From a virus, in IMG/VR virus record IMGVR_UViG_3300025286_000049, positions 1-38,457 of that record: 38,457 nt of DNA. The stretch is one strand, 5' to 3'. Below the pieces are notes generated by a model. That model had not been told where the DNA came from, ran no database searches, and was given only the letters and a program-made list of their open reading frames with translations. Position numbers and translations under genes: made by a program. Below are positions 16,111 to 28,599 of this stretch, piece after piece; position 1 is the first letter of the stretch; every line of letters begins with the position of its first letter.

Positions 16111-16428
16111 ATGCCGTATGAGATGCGATGCGAATGGTGTGGATGCGCTAAACGCATCAACGACGTGATCAACTACGCGAAACGCCTTGAGAAGCAGCGG
16201 TGCCTCAGATCGCCCATCTATACGTCTACGATCATGCAGCAGCGCATCTCTCGACTGAGAGCCTCTCTGCACAACACGATGGGGCAACATCCCCATTGCA
16301 CCTCATGCACGATCCTGTTCGGACCCGTGCATACCAACGTCGAGTACCTGGACGGGATGTGTAGATGGTGCCACAAGCGCCATAACGACGCGAGGCGAAA
16401 CACACAGCGACGTAATGGAGGCACCTAG
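16111..16428 (+). CDS. Zinc-finger protein (105 aa)
   Basis: Unrecognised. It carries CEWCGC near the N-terminus, HPHCTSC near the middle (residues ~60-66) and CRWCHKRH near residues 84-91, with a basic tail (RRNTQRRN). The CxxC pairs suggest one or two bound zinc ions, and the net positive charge suggests nucleic-acid binding. It starts directly after the annealing protein's stop and shares its last base with the exonuclease start, so it belongs to the recombination operon. An HNH-like nuclease was considered because of the CxxC pairs, but no H-N-H core is visible. Confidence 0.55.
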   Translation: MPYEMRCEWCGCAKRINDVINYAKRLEKQRCLRSPIYTSTIMQQRISRLRASLHNTMGQHPHCTSCTILFGPVHTNVEYLDGMCRWCHKRHNDARRNTQRRNGGT

Positions 16429-17192
16429 TGCGATACCCTAGCACCCCCGATCCAAAACGCTCTCAGGAACCGATACGGAGGACATCGAGCAACGGATCGA
16501 GGACATATACGATAAATGCCGTGGAATATCCGTCGGTCACAACGGTTCTGCAGATCGTGGCCAAGCCCGCGCTGCTCGGTTGGTCGAGAAAGGTGGCCCT
16601 GGAAAAAGTTCGGCACACATTGTTGGACCAGATGCGAACAGGGGAGAGGCTCGCAGGCATCACGCCTGGTTGGATCGACACGATGCTCGAAGCGGCCCGG
16701 AAGCGCCCAGACGAGGAGCGGGACCAAGCTGCTGATTTCGGACTGCGATCCCATGAGTTGATCGACAGTGTCCTCCGAGGGGAAGAGACCATCGTACCAG
16801 CAGACTTGGAGCCTGTGATGGAGGGTTTCGATGGGTGGCAGGCCGAGTCAGGGCTGGACATCACGGCAACTGAGCAGGTGGTCTGCTCTGAGCTTCACGG
16901 CTATGCCGGGACATTCGATGCGGTTGCGACCAGGGACGGCGAGGGGGTGTACGTCATTGATTTCAAGACGAGCAACGGCATCTACGATGAGATGTCATTC
17001 CAGGTAGCGGCGTATGCCCAGGCCTATGAGGAGCAGACCGGCCAGGAGGTATTGGGCGGGTATGTTGTGCGGTTCGGCAAGCGGAAGCCCGAGTTCGAGA
17101 CCCGAGAGGTGGACCTTGAGCAGGGGCTATGTGGTTTCTTGGGGGCGCTGGCGCTCTGGCGCACCCTGAGAAAAAAACAGATCTGGAGGTGA
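16428..17192 (+). CDS. RecB/Cas4-like PD-(D/E)XK exonuclease
   Basis: A 254-residue protein. The N-terminus has the YPSVTTVLQI motif (residues 34-43) common to phage recombination nucleases of this kind. The core shows His109 in GLRSHELID, Glu155, Asp164 in GTFDAV, Asp178 and Lys180 in VIDFKTS, and the QVAAYAQAY helix (192-200), which together form the metal site of the PD-(D/E)XK fold. It would chew DNA ends to give single strands for the upstream annealing protein, as lambda Exo does for Bet. The GTG start at 16428 overlaps the preceding TAG (TAGTG). Confidence 0.8.
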   Translation: MRYPSTPDPKRSQEPIRRTSSNGSRTYTINAVEYPSVTTVLQIVAKPALLGWSRKVALEKVRHTLLDQMRTGERLAGITPGWIDTMLEAARKRPDEERDQAADFGLRSHELIDSVLRGEETIVPADLEPVMEGFDGWQAESGLDITATEQVVCSELHGYAGTFDAVATRDGEGVYVIDFKTSNGIYDEMSFQVAAYAQAYEEQTGQEVLGGYVVRFGKRKPEFETREVDLEQGLCGFLGALALWRTLRKKQIWR

Positions 17193-17196
17193 TGCC

Positions 17197-17412
17197 ATGT
17201 GTGATATCTGCGAGAGTAGTGGGATAGATTACGAAGCGCGGTGGCCGTGGGCGGCGTGTGCTCGCCCACCCCGGCCGAAGGCGGAGGAACCTCAGTCTGA
17301 CGTGCAGTCCCTCATAGCGTCCATAGACAAGCTCATATCCGCCCTGGAACGCCGGGTAGAGGTTGATGCCAGGGTGTCCGCGCCGAGAGCTAATCGCTGG
17401 AGTGCGTCGTGA
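17197..17412 (+). CDS. Small Cys-containing protein (71 aa)
   Basis: Unrecognised. The N-terminus has CDIC followed later by one more cysteine (WPWAACARPP), so zinc binding is possible but incomplete. The second half is an amphipathic helix (VQSLIASIDKLISALERRV) that could dimerise. Its TGA overlaps the GTG of the ATPase gene (GTGA), which suggests coupled expression and perhaps a shared complex. A loader or partner for the ATPase would fit the place but is speculation. Confidence 0.55.
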   Translation: MCDICESSGIDYEARWPWAACARPPRPKAEEPQSDVQSLIASIDKLISALERRVEVDARVSAPRANRWSAS

Positions 17413-18635
17413 TCGTGAAGGTGGCCTACAACAACGGTGAGGTCAAGTCCAGCGTGATGCTGGAGAGCGGACAGGTATTCGTATACCGCTGCGACGGCTT
17501 GGGCCGAGAGAAAACGGGCATCCACGGCAGTGTCTCGATCTCGATGGATGGCAGAGAGCTTGCGTGGGGCCGTATCAACCTCGAACGGCAGGAGTCAAGG
17601 ACGAGTCTGGCGCTGGGCGCGTACAAGGCCTCGGGGATCGGTGACCTGTACCCCGCAGAGGATATCAAGGCGGACCTCCTGAGCTTTTGCAGGCAGGCGT
17701 GGCCGGTGCGGTTGGATGGCATGAAGGGCTCGATGCTCGCTGGGGACGCCACATCTGCTCCGCCCGAGTTCCTGGCCAAGCCCCATGTCCTACGGGGAGG
17801 TGGCACCCTGCTGTTCGGTCCGCCGGAAAGGGGCAAATCATACACGGCATTGATCATGGCCGTCGCCATAGACGCTGGGGTGAACGGTTATTGGCAGACC
17901 GAGAAATCAAACGTGATGTACGTGAACCTTGAGCGGGGCGCGGCGTCAGTCCGGCGCAGGCTGGGGTGCGTCAACACGGCCCTGGGGCTGGACCCTGATC
18001 GTGCGCTACTGATCCTGAACGCTCGGGGCTACAGCCTATCAGATGTGCGAGAGAGCATTGACCGGTCTATCAAGGAGAATGGAGTTGAGTTACTGGTATT
18101 GGACTCCATCTCGCGTGCAGGCATGGGAGACCTCACAGAGAACCGTCCAGTCAACATGATCGCAGACGCCATGAACTCCCTGGCTGAGACCTGGATCGGT
18201 ATCGGCCATACCCCCCGTGGGGACTCGACCCATATCTACGGCAGCGTGTTCCTGGATGCCGCAGCCGATATCCTATTACGTCAGAAGTCCGAGCGCCAGG
18301 AACACTCCCTGGGCGTGGGTCTGGAGGTGACCAAGGCCAACGACATAGCCAGACCCCCACCGATGTACCTGCGGTACGGCTTTGACGAGTGGGGCCTGTC
18401 CGGCATCAGTACGGCGGCAGCCGGGGATTTCCCTGGGATGGATGAGGACACGGCGGGGCCGCTACCGTCTGCCTCGCATCAGTTGGAAGAACTCCTGGGA
18501 CGAGGTAAGCTCAAGCTGACTGACATCTACTCCGCCCTGCCGGACTACAAACCCGGAACCATCAGGGCTGCGCTATCACGCCAGAAACACTACGTGCAAG
18601 TGCAGCCGGGGGTGTGGGGATTAGTCTCCCAGTAG
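17409..18635 (+). CDS. RecA-like (AAA_25/RepA-type) ATPase with C-terminal winged-helix-like end
   Basis: A 408-residue protein. The N-terminal ~120 residues are a beta-rich lead domain. The ATPase core has Walker A GPPERGKS (137-144), Walker B LLVLDS (228-233), and a GIGHTPRG segment (264-271) in the place of the sensor/arginine loop of RepA-type hexameric ATPases. The last ~45 residues (LKLTDIYSALPDYKPGTIRAALSRQ) look like a winged helix that could bind DNA. Proteins of this type serve as replicative helicases or helicase-like factors of plasmids and phages. Next to the recombination genes and the inverted-repeat cluster it is the best candidate here for a replication initiator/helicase, although no primase or polymerase is found. 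Confidence 0.7.
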   Translation: MIVKVAYNNGEVKSSVMLESGQVFVYRCDGLGREKTGIHGSVSISMDGRELAWGRINLERQESRTSLALGAYKASGIGDLYPAEDIKADLLSFCRQAWPVRLDGMKGSMLAGDATSAPPEFLAKPHVLRGGGTLLFGPPERGKSYTALIMAVAIDAGVNGYWQTEKSNVMYVNLERGAASVRRRLGCVNTALGLDPDRALLILNARGYSLSDVRESIDRSIKENGVELLVLDSISRAGMGDLTENRPVNMIADAMNSLAETWIGIGHTPRGDSTHIYGSVFLDAAADILLRQKSERQEHSLGVGLEVTKANDIARPPPMYLRYGFDEWGLSGISTAAAGDFPGMDEDTAGPLPSASHQLEELLGRGKLKLTDIYSALPDYKPGTIRAALSRQKHYVQVQPGVWGLVSQ

Positions 18636-18720: not shown

Positions 18721-18795
18721 TAAGATAAAAGAAAGAGTAAGAGAGAGTACGAGAGAGGTTTGTTGTTGCAAGAGCGCATTGAGTTACGAGCTAGT

Positions 18796-18810
18796 GAGGT
18801 GACGAATGTG
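18796..18810 (+). promoter_or_regulatory. Single ribosome binding site serving two overlapping starts (ATGTG)
   Basis: GAGGTGA (18796-18802) is fully complementary to the usual anti-Shine-Dalgarno end. Three bases on is ATG (18806-18808) of one frame, and five bases on is GTG (18808-18810) of the methyltransferase frame; they share the base at 18808. Spacing favours the GTG, but either could be used. Confidence 0.6.
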
Positions 18811-19882
18811 GATACACGTACCCTCAACGTCCTGTCAATATGCAGCGGCGTCGCCGGTCTTGAATTGGGACTCCACGCAGCCCTGGGTGGCAGAACTCGC
18901 ACGGTCTGTTACGTGGAGAACGAACTCGGTGTCGCTGCGATCCTTGCAGCGCGTATGGGAGACGGTTCCCTCGATCCAGCGCCTATCTGGTCTGACATCA
19001 GAACCTTCGATCCAGGCCCGTGGAGTGGCCGAGTGGATATCCTCGCTGGGGGATTCCCGTGCCAGCCATTTTCGTTCGCCGGAAAGCGTCTCCAGGAGTC
19101 AGACTCCAGAAACCTCTGGCCTGCCGTCGCCCGAATCATCGACGGCATCAAGCCCGACAGAGTCTTCTTGGAGAATGTTACAGGCATCCTGCGGTATTAC
19201 CATGAACGAATTCGGAGAGACCTACGAGAGATGGGTTACGAGGTTGCGGAGGGCCTCTTCACAGCGGCAGAAACAGGCGCACCTCACAAGAGAGAGCGCC
19301 TCTTCATCCTGGCCCACGCCGAGCAGCGAGGGGTCAAAGGGGGAGATATCAGAGGACTTGGAGCGGAAGGGAGCGAAACTCTACAACAAGCAGACAGGAC
19401 GTATGCTACAGACCAACTTGGCGACAGAAACTCGGAACTGGCCCACGCCGAATGCGGGGCCACAGAACGACTCGGACACAACCTGGAAGGAACGCCGCCA
19501 GCGAATCAAGGAACAGGGGATCAACGGCAACGGATTCGGCCTGACGCTGGGGATGGCGGCATCCAACTGGCCCACGCCGACCACAGCGGACACGTTCACG
19601 AACAACCTGGAGTCGAGCCAGGTCAGAGAGGGGTCGATGCACAGCGTCACCCTGCCTCGGGCGGCGGGGAACTGGCCCACGCAGGACTCCCGCTCTATCC
19701 CCCAGGCCCCAACGACCACGCCGGATGGGCATACTTGCTCTCCGTCATGCCGCAGGCTCTCCCCACGTTTTGTCGAGATGCTGATGGGGCTCCCGCTGGG
19801 GTGGGTGATCAGCTCAGAGCACTTGGGAATGGCGTTGTACCAGCAGTGGGAAAGACGGCTTATCGAGAACTCAGCGAGATGA
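18806..19882 (+). CDS. Overlapping +1-frame protein with WPTP repeats (possible dual-coding partner of the methyltransferase)
   Basis: A 358-codon frame, shifted +1 relative to the methyltransferase. From about residue 165 on it does not look like noise: four SWPTP/NWPTP-type repeats (Trp169, 212, 255, 290), plausible helices between them, then CSPSCRRLSPRFVEMLMGLPL (318-330 onward, GW at 332) and QQWERRL near the end. From memory, WPTP repeats followed by LNPRFVEWLMGFP-GW are a recurrent C-terminal signature of many phage proteins annotated as cytosine methyltransferases. The same bases (CTGGCCCACGCC) give LAHA in one frame and WPTP in the other. The N-terminal half (SSLGDSRASHF over motif IV) is weaker. 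It may be a separate overprinted protein, an alternative C-terminus reached by frameshifting, or a conserved shadow. Confidence 0.45.
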   Translation: MWIHVPSTSCQYAAASPVLNWDSTQPWVAELARSVTWRTNSVSLRSLQRVWETVPSIQRLSGLTSEPSIQARGVAEWISSLGDSRASHFRSPESVSRSQTPETSGLPSPESSTASSPTESSWRMLQASCGITMNEFGETYERWVTRLRRASSQRQKQAHLTRESASSSWPTPSSEGSKGEISEDLERKGAKLYNKQTGRMLQTNLATETRNWPTPNAGPQNDSDTTWKERRQRIKEQGINGNGFGLTLGMAASNWPTPTTADTFTNNLESSQVREGSMHSVTLPRAAGNWPTQDSRSIPQAPTTTPDGHTCSPSCRRLSPRFVEMLMGLPLGWVISSEHLGMALYQQWERRLIENSAR

Positions 19883-19998
19883 TAGGAGGACTATGTTGCG
19901 ATGGGCATTCGCAGAACGCAAAAAAGGACCCCGTCCAGACCCTCGGATTGAGAGTCCAGACGGGGCCTGATTCTCCAGGGGGACGATATGGAACCTGA
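18808..19998 (+). CDS. C5 cytosine-specific DNA methyltransferase
   Basis: About 396 residues from GTG 18808; TTG starts near 18760-18768 would add up to 16. All key C5 methyltransferase motifs are present: motif I LSICSGVAGLELGL (residues 9-22), motif IV GGFPCQPFSFAGKR with catalytic Cys85, motif VI FLENV (121-125), motif VIII GAPHKRERLFIL (157-168) and motif X RALGNGVVPAVG (337-348). The target-recognition region has four LAHA-type repeats and then YPPGPNDHAGW, typical of phage Dcm proteins. It would methylate cytosine at C5, protecting phage DNA or altering regulation. No partner endonuclease is seen. The last ~25 residues beyond motif X are extra. Nearly the whole gene is covered by a second open frame (see next entry). 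Confidence 0.85.
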   Translation: MDTRTLNVLSICSGVAGLELGLHAALGGRTRTVCYVENELGVAAILAARMGDGSLDPAPIWSDIRTFDPGPWSGRVDILAGGFPCQPFSFAGKRLQESDSRNLWPAVARIIDGIKPDRVFLENVTGILRYYHERIRRDLREMGYEVAEGLFTAAETGAPHKRERLFILAHAEQRGVKGGDIRGLGAEGSETLQQADRTYATDQLGDRNSELAHAECGATERLGHNLEGTPPANQGTGDQRQRIRPDAGDGGIQLAHADHSGHVHEQPGVEPGQRGVDAQRHPASGGGELAHAGLPLYPPGPNDHAGWAYLLSVMPQALPTFCRDADGAPAGVGDQLRALGNGVVPAVGKTAYRELSEMIGGLCCDGHSQNAKKDPVQTLGLRVQTGPDSPGGRYGT

Positions 19999-22125: not shown

Positions 22126-23610
22126 TTATTTGTTCAGCAGCCGCCCCGTGGCCGGGGCGGTCGCCTGGGCGTCTGGCATCCGATACACGCCGGGATGCGA
22201 CGCCGAGATGTAGCGCCCGTGGGCCTGACGCTGTAGGGCCTGGACGCCCTCCGGATCAACTCGGGATACCGGGACTATGAACTCGGACGCCATCTCCAGG
22301 GTACATCCCATCCGATCCGAGATGTCCAGGCATTTCTCGATCTCCGCCCCCGTCCAGCCATCGTCATCGGGATGGTCGCCGGGGGTGTCCTCGTACACGT
22401 TCCAGATGGCGGCTCGCTCGTCCGCATCGGGCAGGTCGAAGTAGTACGTCCCGAGGCTGAAGCGCCGTCGGAGTGCCGGGGGCAGATTGGTGATCTTGTT
22501 GGACGTGGCGATGAACATGACCTCGCCAGCACCCACCGCCGTCACTACCTTGAGTGCGGCGCGTATGGTACGCTCCGCACCGCCCACCAGGCCGCCGCCA
22601 GCGGCCTTCAGCCCTCCCAGGTCGAGCTTGAGCGTGGGGATACCCGCCTCGTTGCCAGCGGCCTTGGCCATGACGCTCTTGGCCGCGCCGGGGGGACCAA
22701 CGAAGATCATCCCCGTGGCCTGGGTATCCTGCATGTACTCCAGCATCACGCCGAGGTAGTCCTGGCTCACCCCAGAGGAGTCATTGCCGCCCCCGCTGGC
22801 ACCCGCCATCGCCTTCTCGATCTCATCGATGAACACTATCGCCCTGGGTGCGCGTTTGCCTGCCAGGATGCGTCGGAGGAAGCCCTTTATGTTCTCGGCT
22901 CCGCCGATGCGGTCATAGGACTCCGCTCCGCGCCAGATCGTCAGGCCTGGGGTAGCGTCGATCATCTGCCGCTTTTTGTCCCAGAGCATCTCCAGGTCCA
23001 CGCCGTCCGGGGTCATGGACATCGCCGAGGCCTGATCGGCTGCGAATGCCGATAGCCCTGTCAGAGCCTCGGCGGCGGACTCCAGCCTGCCGTCTGGCTC
23101 CAGCCCCGCATCCTGGTGCGACTGTCGAACGATCTCACTCAGGGCCTGTACGTCCGGCAGGGGCTCGTCCATCACCAACACGTCCTGGTCAAGCTCCGCC
23201 GGGAGATCGATGGTGGGGGCGAGTAGGATCACCATCCGCCCCTGCGCCTTGGAGGGATCACGCACGTTCCATACGGCCTGGGAGATGGCCGGGTCATCGG
23301 CCAAGATACGATGCGCGTTCAAGACAAACAACGCCGTCCTGTCTGGCATTTTCCCAAGGAAGATCAGCGTGTCTATGAGACCGGCGGGGCCAACGGTCTC
23401 CACCTCTCCCGAGATCTCGCTCCAGGCGGCTGCCCCGGCAGCGCCCAGAGCCCTAGTGCCTCGGACGATATCCCATACGAGTATCGCCGTATCCCCGTTC
23501 ATCCATGTGCAACACGATGCCATCGTGGCCTGCGGATCTGCCGTCTGGATGGCCACCAGCGGGGTAGATACCCGCCGTGCGGCCCTGAACTGTGACTCTA
23601 TGCCTGTCAT
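22126..23610 (-). CDS. AAA+ ATPase, Ycf46-like, with Walker B placed before Walker A
   Basis: A 494-residue protein. The N-terminal ~220 residues resemble the lead domain of Ycf46-type ATPases (ALFVLNAHRIL at 93-103, VILLAPTIDLPAEL at 127-140, DKKRQMI at 211-217). Then come IGGAENIKGFL (235-245), IVFIDEIEKAMAG (258-270) with GVSQDYLGVMLEYM, and only afterwards MIFVGPPGAAKSVMAKAAG (301-319), LKLDLGGL, GGAERTIRAALK and the sensor-1 MFIATSNKITNLPPALRRRF (365-384). In ordinary AAA proteins the DEIEK block sits between the AERTIR helix and sensor 1; here that gap is missing and the block has moved forward. All catalytic pieces remain, so it is probably active as a remodelling ATPase. AGGAGG precedes the start. 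Confidence 0.75.
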   Translation of the reverse strand: MTGIESQFRAARRVSTPLVAIQTADPQATMASCCTWMNGDTAILVWDIVRGTRALGAAGAAAWSEISGEVETVGPAGLIDTLIFLGKMPDRTALFVLNAHRILADDPAISQAVWNVRDPSKAQGRMVILLAPTIDLPAELDQDVLVMDEPLPDVQALSEIVRQSHQDAGLEPDGRLESAAEALTGLSAFAADQASAMSMTPDGVDLEMLWDKKRQMIDATPGLTIWRGAESYDRIGGAENIKGFLRRILAGKRAPRAIVFIDEIEKAMAGASGGGNDSSGVSQDYLGVMLEYMQDTQATGMIFVGPPGAAKSVMAKAAGNEAGIPTLKLDLGGLKAAGGGLVGGAERTIRAALKVVTAVGAGEVMFIATSNKITNLPPALRRRFSLGTYYFDLPDADERAAIWNVYEDTPGDHPDDDGWTGAEIEKCLDISDRMGCTLEMASEFIVPVSRVDPEGVQALQRQAHGRYISASHPGVYRMPDAQATAPATGRLLNK

Positions 23611-23636: not shown

Positions 23637-24542
23637 CTAGGACTCGTCCTCGAAGCTGATCAGCCTGGTGGGTTTGATCATCAACGAATCGTCCATGATC
23701 GTCCGCACCGCCGCCAGGGAATTCCGGGTTACGGCTCTGGCCGTCGAGTTCCTGCGTAGCTCGTTGGGATTCGTACCCGATAGGATCTTTTGGGCCTCGC
23801 CCACCAGACCCGCAAGCTCCTGATCGCCCACCACATTCCGCCCCTCAAACGTCCTGAAGAACTCATTCATGTTGGCGATCAAACTGTCCTTGAACATTTT
23901 CGGCTTGCCCCGGCGCTTGCCCCCCGTCTCGCTCCCCAGCCTCTCGACGGCATGGTCTAGGAGGGCAGCCAACTCCTCGCGCATGGCCTGCTGGATCTCG
24001 AGGACCTCCAACTTGGCCTGCTCGATCGCCTTGGCCCTCTCACGCGCCAGCAGTGCTGCCGATACGTTGGATAGGCTCTTCGGGGTGTCCAGCGTGAGGT
24101 ATGAGTATTCAACGCCGAACGATCTCCGTATCACCTCTGCCAGGGGGTAGTCCTCGGCGTCGAACAGGTCTCTCAGCGTCTCGCGTGCCTGCTCCACCAG
24201 TGCCGGGTATGCGTCGATGAAACGGTCGATGCACTCACGTCGCCTCTCCTGGTAGGTTTCCAGGTACGTCTCAAACTCCTCGACCGTGGACAGTGGGACA
24301 CGGTACATGCCATTTTTGAGTGCTCGACTCGGCAGGCTACGAGCGTACAGCCAGTGGCGTAGCTCGGTATCGAGGGCCGTCAGCCGTGCAAGGTCCGGGG
24401 ATCTCAGCAATTCCTTGCTCACGTTGATCGAGTCCTTGTCTGCGTCCACCTCCACCAGTCCCGAGGCCACTCTGCGGCGGTTGCCCGGGATTGAGATTTT
24501 CAACGACAGGATCACGGTTGTGTCTGCGAGTCTATCGGCCAT
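23637..24542 (-). CDS. Helical protein of the AAA+ module (DUF3150-like style), 301 aa
   Basis: No firm family. Mostly helical, soluble and charged: a short strand region (TTVILSLKISIPGNRR), helices with VEEFETYLETYQERRRECID (about 106-125), a long coiled stretch (RERAKAIEQAKLEVLEIQQA), a basic patch (GGKRRGKPKMFKDS) and an Asn/Arg-rich end. Size and layout remind me of DUF3150 proteins that accompany MoxR-type ATPases, but I cannot confirm it. It lies directly upstream of the AAA+ gene, overlaps the DUF2997-like gene by 11 bases and has GAGGAGG before its start, so it is likely a partner or substrate adaptor of the ATPase. Confidence 0.5.
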   Translation of the reverse strand: MADRLADTTVILSLKISIPGNRRRVASGLVEVDADKDSINVSKELLRSPDLARLTALDTELRHWLYARSLPSRALKNGMYRVPLSTVEEFETYLETYQERRRECIDRFIDAYPALVEQARETLRDLFDAEDYPLAEVIRRSFGVEYSYLTLDTPKSLSNVSAALLARERAKAIEQAKLEVLEIQQAMREELAALLDHAVERLGSETGGKRRGKPKMFKDSLIANMNEFFRTFEGRNVVGDQELAGLVGEAQKILSGTNPNELRRNSTARAVTRNSLAAVRTIMDDSLMIKPTRLISFEDES

Positions 24543-24750
24543 TAGATGCGTGCCTCCTCGTGCTGTTGTGTGTGCTGTTGTGCCGGTGGCTGCGAGCCAC
24601 CGGGTTGCGCTTTGACGTAGTTGCGCCGCCCATCAATTGGTCCACCAGTCTGAGTAGATCATCGGCGTTGCGATGGTTCGCCGTGCCGATACCCTCGGTG
24701 GTGATCCTGAGGGTGCCATCGCTCAATATCTCGACCTGGATACTATCCAT
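24532..24750 (-). CDS. DUF2997-like small protein (72 aa)
   Basis: Starts MDSIQVEILSDGTLRITTEG, followed by a helix (NADDLLRLVDQLMGG) and a basic His/Ser/Asn tail. The opening (a strand, DG turn, strand, G-x-G) followed by a helix with a late LMGG matches DUF2997 proteins, which sit beside DUF1257 and Ycf46-like AAA genes in cyanobacteria. AGGAGG five bases upstream fixes ATG 24750. The tail contains a perfect 9-bp GC hairpin (24583-24603) in its DNA. Role unknown; its linkage to the AAA+ gene is the main clue. Confidence 0.5.
   Translation of the reverse strand: MDSIQVEILSDGTLRITTEGIGTANHRNADDLLRLVDQLMGGATTSKRNPVARSHRHNSTHNSTRRHASNGR
24583..24603. other. Perfect 9-bp hairpin inside the DUF2997-like gene
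   Basis: CCGGTGGCT (24583-24591) pairs with AGCCACCGG (24595-24603) around a GCG loop. A related CCGGTGG hairpin lies at 25938-25959. They may be mRNA stability elements of the leftward transcript. Confidence 0.55.
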
Positions 24751-24752
24751 TC

Positions 24753-25040
24753 TCACCTCCTCGCCATCGTGTATTTGTTGCCGCTCTGCCGCACTCCCCA
24801 GCCGTACCGCTTCGCCGCCTGCCGGACGGCCATAGCGGCGTAGCTACGTTTGGTCGCATCGATCAGGCCCTCCCGGCCTTGCGGGACTGTCAGCGTCCCG
24901 GTCTCGACCACCCGCCTGGCCTGGGCGTGGGCCTGGGCCTGATCAGAGGCGAGTCCGGTATCCATCAGCGCCTCGGCGAGTAGCTCGGCATCGACGGCCC
25001 GGAATTCCACGGTCGTTGTCCGAACCTCATAGCAGGGCAT
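24753..25040 (-). CDS. DUF1257/Ycf35-like protein (95 aa)
   Basis: MPCYEVRTTTVEFRAVDAEL opens the protein, with the layout of DUF1257 (Ycf35): a strand, then DAELLAEALMDTGL, then a late helix (YAAMAVRQAAKRYGWGVRQS) and a final strand YTMARR. In cyanobacteria and plastids DUF1257, DUF2997 and the Ycf46 ATPase are associated; the same three neighbours appear here. AGGAGG precedes the ATG, which overlaps the upstream stop (TGATG). Similarity is by eye and modest; the middle is shorter than in cellular versions. Confidence 0.45.
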   Translation of the reverse strand: MPCYEVRTTTVEFRAVDAELLAEALMDTGLASDQAQAHAQARRVVETGTLTVPQGREGLIDATKRSYAAMAVRQAAKRYGWGVRQSGNKYTMARR

Positions 25041-25234
25041 CACTCCTCCTGGCCGGTGGCCTTGGTTCTTGCGGCCTCTAGTCTGGCACCAAACTCCAGC
25101 ATCTCAACCACTAGGTCGCGCCCTTCGCCCTGCGATAGACCGTTCCTGCATAGCGCGACGGCATATCGAAACATCCCAGGCCAGTGCGGCGTCAGGTCGA
25201 TGGTCTCAGGAATAGTCTCGTCCAGGTTTCTCAT
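25040..25234 (-). CDS. Small helical protein upstream of the DUF1257-like gene (64 aa)
   Basis: Unrecognised. GGGAGG upstream of ATG 25234; the stop overlaps the next start. Contains HWPGMFRYAVALCRNGLSQG followed by a helix (VVEMLEFGARLEAARTK). The phrase resembles the short helical modules found in small phage proteins, but no function can be given. Probably co-translated with the AAA+ module. Confidence 0.5.
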   Translation of the reverse strand: MRNLDETIPETIDLTPHWPGMFRYAVALCRNGLSQGEGRDLVVEMLEFGARLEAARTKATGQEE

Positions 25235-27786: not shown

Positions 27787-28599
27787 CTAGCTACCTATGC
27801 CAATCATTGTGCCGTTCTGGTTTTCGACTGCTACCACGAACCCGCTCTTGTCGTGCTTTGCGGCACCCTTGGCTCTGAGCCCTGCCACAACCCCGGGTGC
27901 ATCCAGGAATCGCATATCATCCGAATCGGCGTCGATCACTGGTATCGCACGGCGTAGCTTGTGGCTCAGGAATGATTCTGGTAGCGCTTCACCCTTGGCG
28001 GTATCGAATACGACTGCAATGTTCTTACCAGATTCCAACCAGCCATTTGCACGATAACGATTAGCCGCTGTTTCGGCGTATGAGAATGTTAGGTGGTAAT
28101 TTGCGGGTGCAGTGGAGCGCACTGATATCGGAGCCTTGGTGTAGTCATAGAAAATCACGTCATGGTACTTGGCGAACAATTCCGGATATACCTTCTCCCA
28201 GACGATATCGGTCGTGCCGTTCAACCTCACGGCAGCTTTCATGCCTTGGCGGAGCGCCTTAGCTCTGAGCGCGCCAACCTCGGTGTCGAGTTTAGCCTTG
28301 AACGCTGGTCGGCGTTTCATGAACATTTCCGTGCGCCATATCATTGCCTTGGATACTGTGGTTTTCGCCCAATCGAATTCACGACTTGCCAAGGCATTAG
28401 CGCCTTGGTTCATTCTTCCGGAACCGATGCCAAGGCAAACCGCTCTACAGCCGTCAGTCGCCCATGGGCAGAGGTTGCCAAGGCCACCGCTATCGGATGG
28501 TGCCAGATACATCACGGCGTTCAAGATTGGCTCCGATAGTGCCGCCCCGACTGCGTTTGATTTGTCCAGCTTGTAGCTTGTACCGAGGAGGTTCGTCAT
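27787..28599 (-). CDS. Gp88-like phage protein
   Basis: A 270-residue protein. It shows the marks of the mycobacteriophage Gp88-type family: YLAPSDSGGLGNLCPWATDG (31-50) continuing into CRAVCL, giving Cys44, Cys51 and Cys55; RLNGTTDIVWE (about 124-134); a VIFYDYTK segment; NYHLTFSYAE; and a late PVIDADSDDMRFLDAPG, then VVAGLRAKGAAKHDKSGFVV. Family function is unknown. The three close cysteines could hold a metal or iron-sulfur cluster, and the LTFS/FYDYTK core recalls a barrel enzyme, but that is inference. It is the largest gene at the promoter-proximal end of the leftward block. Confidence 0.75.
   Translation of the reverse strand: MTNLLGTSYKLDKSNAVGAALSEPILNAVMYLAPSDSGGLGNLCPWATDGCRAVCLGIGSGRMNQGANALASREFDWAKTTVSKAMIWRTEMFMKRRPAFKAKLDTEVGALRAKALRQGMKAAVRLNGTTDIVWEKVYPELFAKYHDVIFYDYTKAPISVRSTAPANYHLTFSYAETAANRYRANGWLESGKNIAVVFDTAKGEALPESFLSHKLRRAIPVIDADSDDMRFLDAPGVVAGLRAKGAAKHDKSGFVVAVENQNGTMIGIGS

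Follow-up and report, generated by a model that had tools for sequence, protein, structure and literature searches.

The closest kin of the proteins described here are the Ycf46-like AAA+ ATPases of cyanobacteria, plastids, other bacteria and many phages, which share their two-domain architecture and motifs and carry these motifs in the normal order. AAA+ families, and the profile models that represent them, presuppose that Walker A, Walker B and sensor 1 always follow one another in a single order, which the phage family presented below breaks. Elsewhere among P-loop NTPases, the circularly permuted GTPases RsgA/YjeQ and YlqF are known to work with reordered motifs. A literature search that left out most subscription journals turned up no account of an AAA+ core, or of Walker motifs, in permuted order.

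The window, that is, the whole stretch of 38,457 nucleotides analysed here, comes from an IMG/VR virus record and encodes a terminase and a major head protein, indicating that it is a fragment of a tailed phage. A first-pass annotation made from the letters alone had claimed a minus-strand ORF of 494 amino acids at 22126-23610, in which Walker B stands ahead of Walker A. The ORF is present and the residue positions quoted for it are correct: IVFIDEIEKAMAG lies at 258-270, with the Walker B stretch IVFIDEIEK at 258-266, followed by GPPGAAKS at 305-312 and IATSN at 367-371. The features of the gene are as follows.

22126-23610, minus strand: permuted-core Ycf46-like AAA+ ATPase, 494 amino acids (ORF; Pfam AAA; AlphaFold2, AF2)
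22945-23610, minus strand: N-terminal domain, residues 1-222 (VIA-align to p97; hhalign)
22717-22842, minus strand: segment B, residues 257-298, strand 3 with Walker B and helix 3, shifted forward
22813-22827, minus strand: Walker B DEIEK, residues 262-266 (invariant D, E, E and K)
22528-22716, minus strand: segment A, residues 299-361, strand 1, P-loop, helix 1, strand 2 and helix 2
22675-22698, minus strand: Walker A GPPGAAKS, residues 305-312 (motif position and tally over 74 cores)
22498-22512, minus strand: sensor 1 IATSN, residues 367-371, immediately after helix 2 (N371 invariant)
22462-22464, minus strand: R383 of the RRRF motif, at the arginine-finger position (invariant; function inferred from the AAA family)

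Pfam AAA matches the window protein at 52.7 bits, and no Walker motif was found in its N-terminal domain (residues 1-222). The residues expected of an AAA+ protein, namely Walker A, the Walker B Asp-Glu, the sensor-1 asparagine and the arginine finger, are present in the permuted family; the motif order of AAA (PF00004), which is A, B, sensor 1, is not met by its members, which run B, A, sensor 1.

Scans of IMG/VR with two queries gave 182 and 211 contig matches, and the best 80 of each were examined. Block order was determined with one profile each for the N-terminal domain and for blocks A, B and C: the order N-B-A-C was found in 154 ORFs and N-A-B-C in 83. Once same-contig repeats were removed, the distinct cores numbered 74 for the permuted order and 58, as parsed, for the normal order; 20 further normal-order ORFs fell outside the motif patterns, several through degenerate Walker motifs. 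Duplicated A or B blocks, which would mark evolutionary intermediates, were absent among the ~240 ORFs. Permuted ATPases are also encoded on three bacterial MAG contigs, and gp103 of the podovirus Tunturi_3, whose host is the acidobacterium Tunturiibacter psychrotolerans and whose isolate has been described (PMC11924767), was the one close relative in a collection of phage records. The search for the same motif order that the first-pass annotation proposed thus recovered it in IMG/VR, in MAG contigs and in a cultured phage, and the suspicion that we were dealing with a phage lineage rather than a lone gene was confirmed by 74 distinct relatives. Since the order B, A, sensor 1 recurs in all these permuted cores, it is due neither to chance nor to an assembly fault.

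Some relatives carry interrupted or degenerate genes. Normal-order phage relatives L139-L143, L166 and several others have no recognisable Walker A or Walker B, which suggests that ATPase activity may have been lost in these sister lineages. Insertions at or between the Walker motifs split the normal-order genes of L131 (6894-7770), L180 (3143-4229) and L181-L185 (6876-7165); that of L131 lies inside Walker B (LFID/EIEK) and that of L181 inside the P-loop region. Some of these insertions have their own ORFs resembling homing endonucleases, and an Rfam scan of four relatives with split genes detected no known intron family. Among permuted relatives, L072 (4971-6929) has an apparent intein at sensor 1 (ATC/N), and L002 (1007-2555) and L081 (2901-4555) are broken by apparent frameshifts.

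The nature of the rearrangement emerged from spacing and alignment. Walker A and Walker B are 59 residues apart in normal-order proteins, and sensor 1 follows Walker B by ~37-42; in permuted proteins Walker A mostly lies 40-43 residues after Walker B, and sensor 1 ~60 after Walker A. Aligned by hhalign, the permuted and normal-order alignments scored 553.5, plus a separate off-diagonal match of block B with a probability of 98%. Un-swapping the columns in silico raised the score to 693.3 in one collinear alignment running from residue 4 to near the end, so that homology with Ycf46-like proteins covers the full length, N-terminal domain included, over 457 columns. These data, together with the block-order profiles, bear out the proposal that strand 3, together with its helix, was relocated ahead of strand 1. 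The lid, sensor 1 and the N-terminal domain stayed where they were, and because collinearity with normal-order relatives is unbroken in both the N-terminal domain and the C-terminal part, the rearrangement is, as read from the alignments, an internal swap of the neighbouring segments 257-298 and 299-361 and not a circular permutation of the domain. The broken order also explains why annotation pipelines see only fragments, with Pfam AAA matching the window protein in three separate stretches and PHROG_8638 matching permuted proteins in four, against one in a normal-order relative.

Apart from the odd order itself, nothing favours the alternative that there is no true permutation, the real Walker B being elsewhere and the DEIEK block being an unrelated insertion before a normal core. 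In none of the 74 distinct permuted cores does an hhhDE motif occur between helix 2 and sensor 1, and the block matches the normal Walker B block with the high probability given above, at lengths that agree within a few residues. In the window protein the slot before sensor 1 is closed, as had been claimed, with no hidden second Walker B at 350-365. We regard the insertion as scarcely tenable.

For structure prediction, AlphaFold2 was given permuted sequences only, with no templates and without one row from an annotated phage record. The model of the window protein (pLDDT 91.4, pTM 0.87) has strands at 257-261, 299-304, 326-329, 364-370 and 388-390, and the monomer prediction called for earlier returned a confident AAA+ fold matching p97 and Vps4, although the placement of the strands was not inspected. 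Residues 1-467 of the model align to p97 209-763 with Z 17.9 (VIA-align), across both domains. The C-terminal domain model matches p97 D2 over 195 residues at 2.6 Å and Vps4 over 206 at 2.8 Å, and the model also matches phage Ycf46 models. The N-terminal domain was aligned with the D1 part of p97/Cdc48 and runs collinear with its counterpart in normal-order Ycf46-like relatives. Structure searches follow chain order and so cannot show a non-sequential placement of segment B; block B was probably left unplaced by these sequential alignments. Covariation, based on ~66 effective sequences, was strongest in the permuted family between helix 3 and both helix 2 and strand 2 (Y292-T357, D284-E346, M289-L329), pairs that are the neighbours expected in the normal fold. 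Its echo in normal-order proteins was marginal (7 of the top 20 pairs, with at most 6 in shifted controls), and comparison of permuted with normal covariation outside the B-A pair was uninformative.

In an alignment of 62-63 sequences D262, E263, E265, K266, G305, G308, K311, N371 and R383 are invariant, and all 74 distinct permuted cores have the D, E, E and K of DEIEK unchanged. The position of the third P-loop glycine is occupied in permuted cores by G (38), A (28) or S (7; n=74) and in normal cores by glycine (58 of 58); the P-loop of Tunturi_3 reads GVPGVSKS. Absence of this glycine from about half of the permuted family could mean altered nucleotide handling. In the pairs compared dN was well below dS, with dS near saturation for the more distant pairs.

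The alanine or serine at this position, the Tunturi_3 P-loop and the lack of recognisable Walker motifs in some normal-order sister proteins could be taken to mean that the core, permuted as it is, no longer makes a working ATPase and survives as a structural or nucleotide-binding relic that only scaffolds its DUF1257, DUF2997 and DUF3150 partners. Relics, however, normally lose catalytic residues, whereas even very diverged permuted members all retain the Walker A Gly and Lys, the Walker B Asp-Glu, the sensor-1 Asn and R383; RavA/MoxR ATPases, moreover, have GPPGxAKS too and are nevertheless active. A relic is therefore improbable in our judgement.

Two trees were calculated, one from all re-ordered columns and one from the unswapped regions only, and in both every permuted sequence falls on one side of a fully supported branch. 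With the unswapped-region tree rooted towards bacterial sequences, the permuted clade is nested within normal-order phage proteins, and its nearest normal-order relatives are L266, L147 and L155 (support 96). The permuted proteins thereby group with the Ycf46-like proteins, nested among the normal-order phage members with support 96-100. The simplest reading of these sequence trees is one transposition in a phage lineage, and the family appears to descend from a single ancient rearrangement in which the catalytic residues were kept.

The ATPase gene of the window is accompanied by three partner genes.

23637-24542, minus strand: DUF3150-like, mostly helical partner, 301 amino acids (family HMM; AF2 pLDDT 93)
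24532-24756, minus strand: DUF2997-like small protein, diverged form (family HMM E 1.3e-27; link to PF11211 through relatives only)
24753-25043, minus strand: DUF1257 (Ycf35)-like protein, diverged form (family HMM E 1.8e-24; link to PF06868 through relatives only)

All three partners connect to their Pfam families only through relatives; normal-order DUF3150-like members match PF11348 with E 1e-23 to 1e-26, and the DUF3150-like family HMM matches at 74 of the 78 permuted loci. The complete set lies near the ATPase in 70 of these 78 loci. The same three partners occur beside many normal-order relatives, so that the permuted family shares the DUF1257/DUF2997 neighbourhood of Ycf46-like genes. 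An annotated Candidatus Manganitrophus plasmid has AAA ATPase, DUF1257, DUF2997 and DUF3150 genes in a row, the ATPase being of normal order, and in Synechocystis-type cyanobacteria DUF2997 and DUF1257 (ycf35) are found together with a ferredoxin gene (PMC4284462). We found no assigned function for any of the three partners. When its fold was searched, the DUF3150-like partner matched nothing significantly (best Foldseek E 0.07; Z <9), and Z <9 is usual for helical bundles. The DUF2997-like genes of some permuted loci (e.g. L012, L028, L033) encode histidine-rich C-terminal tails, a composition suggestive of possible metal binding.

On an IncC plasmid (L270, 154-8147), AAA ATPase, ssb, bet, exo, DUF3150 and VWA genes lie close together, a hint that AAA ATPases of several kinds have DUF3150 proteins as companions. 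Genes elsewhere in the window include a PD-(D/E)XK nuclease (16428-17192), an AAA_25 ATPase (17409-18635), a DNA methyltransferase (18760-19998) and a GP88-family gene (27787-28599).

The company of ssb, bet and exo on the IncC plasmid, and the presence of RusA and PD-(D/E)XK nuclease genes not far off in the window, raise the possibility that the permuted ATPase, instead of being a general protein remodeller, works in phage DNA metabolism, where it could, for instance, have a loading or remodelling function in the region of recombination and replication. In the flanks examined, however, permuted loci do not regularly have the window's recombination genes nearby, and no DNA-binding domain was found in the module. 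This role, although it deserves consideration, seems to us rather unlikely. The tie to the window's recombination genes was rejected, as it did not hold across loci.

Weak PADLOC matches to IetA and a weak NCBIfam match to IteA raised a different function, in anti-defence or in conflict between phages, on the analogy of IetA, the AAA ATPase of the IetAS anti-phage system. No match to IetA is full-length. The matches span only parts of the AAA core and therefore reflect shared AAA ancestry, and no protease-like partner was recognised among the conserved neighbours. A role of this kind would be very unlikely.

Together these data demonstrate that the swap is exact, that the catalytic residues are conserved, that the permuted form arose once, from within the normal-order phage Ycf46-like proteins, and that the gene module is conserved. 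We consider it highly probable that the protein is a tailed-phage Ycf46-type AAA+ ATPase with two blocks of its C-terminal core swapped, predicted in the absence of biochemical data to be a working ring machine. Activity and ring assembly are inferred, and this segmentally permuted ATPase of single origin is presumably active. The chain is predicted to refold into a standard parallel AAA+ sheet, because one edge carries all the strand starts and no re-joined loop has to skip more than one strand; D262 and E263 would then meet the P-loop as usual, although that distance was not measured. The protein would form a ring-shaped, ATP-driven machine with R383 as arginine finger. Mechanically, the chief difference would be the entry point of the N-terminal linker, at strand 3 and no longer at strand 1. 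That the core, re-wired by one block transposition and still active, has also changed the coupling of the N-terminal domain to nucleotide state, with the linker pulling the Walker B strand rather than the P-loop strand, is possible, and we stop just short of favouring it. With its three partners, the ATPase may remodel or unfold a protein complex during phage infection; this is inferred only, the substrate is unknown, and we offer a general remodelling role no more than tentatively.

Compared with known systems, the permuted family is nearest to Ycf46-like ATPases, with which it is collinear outside the swapped blocks (hhalign probability 100) and has DUF1257 (Ycf35), DUF2997 and DUF3150 neighbours in common; PHROG_8638 includes normal-order phage members of this group. 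It differs in the reversal of segments A and B, in an RRRF motif without the usual glycine spacer and in the frequent alanine at the third P-loop glycine. With p97/Cdc48 D1-D2 and Vps4 the predicted likeness consists of a D2-like C-terminal AAA domain and a D1-like N-terminal domain (Z ~16-18), whereas the strand order along the chain is different, the N-terminal domain lacks Walker motifs and identity is <25%. In the IncC plasmid cluster, too, a gene for an AAA family ATPase is found close to a DUF3150 protein, with a VWA partner in place of DUF1257 and DUF2997. The fold is known, and its chain order is altered in a widespread phage family, providing a natural experiment on how much chain order P-loop machines need for function, in which unpermuted sister proteins of the same gene module serve as controls. 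Whereas RsgA/YjeQ and YlqF are GTPases with a circular permutation, the phage family is an AAA+ ATPase with an internal block swap.
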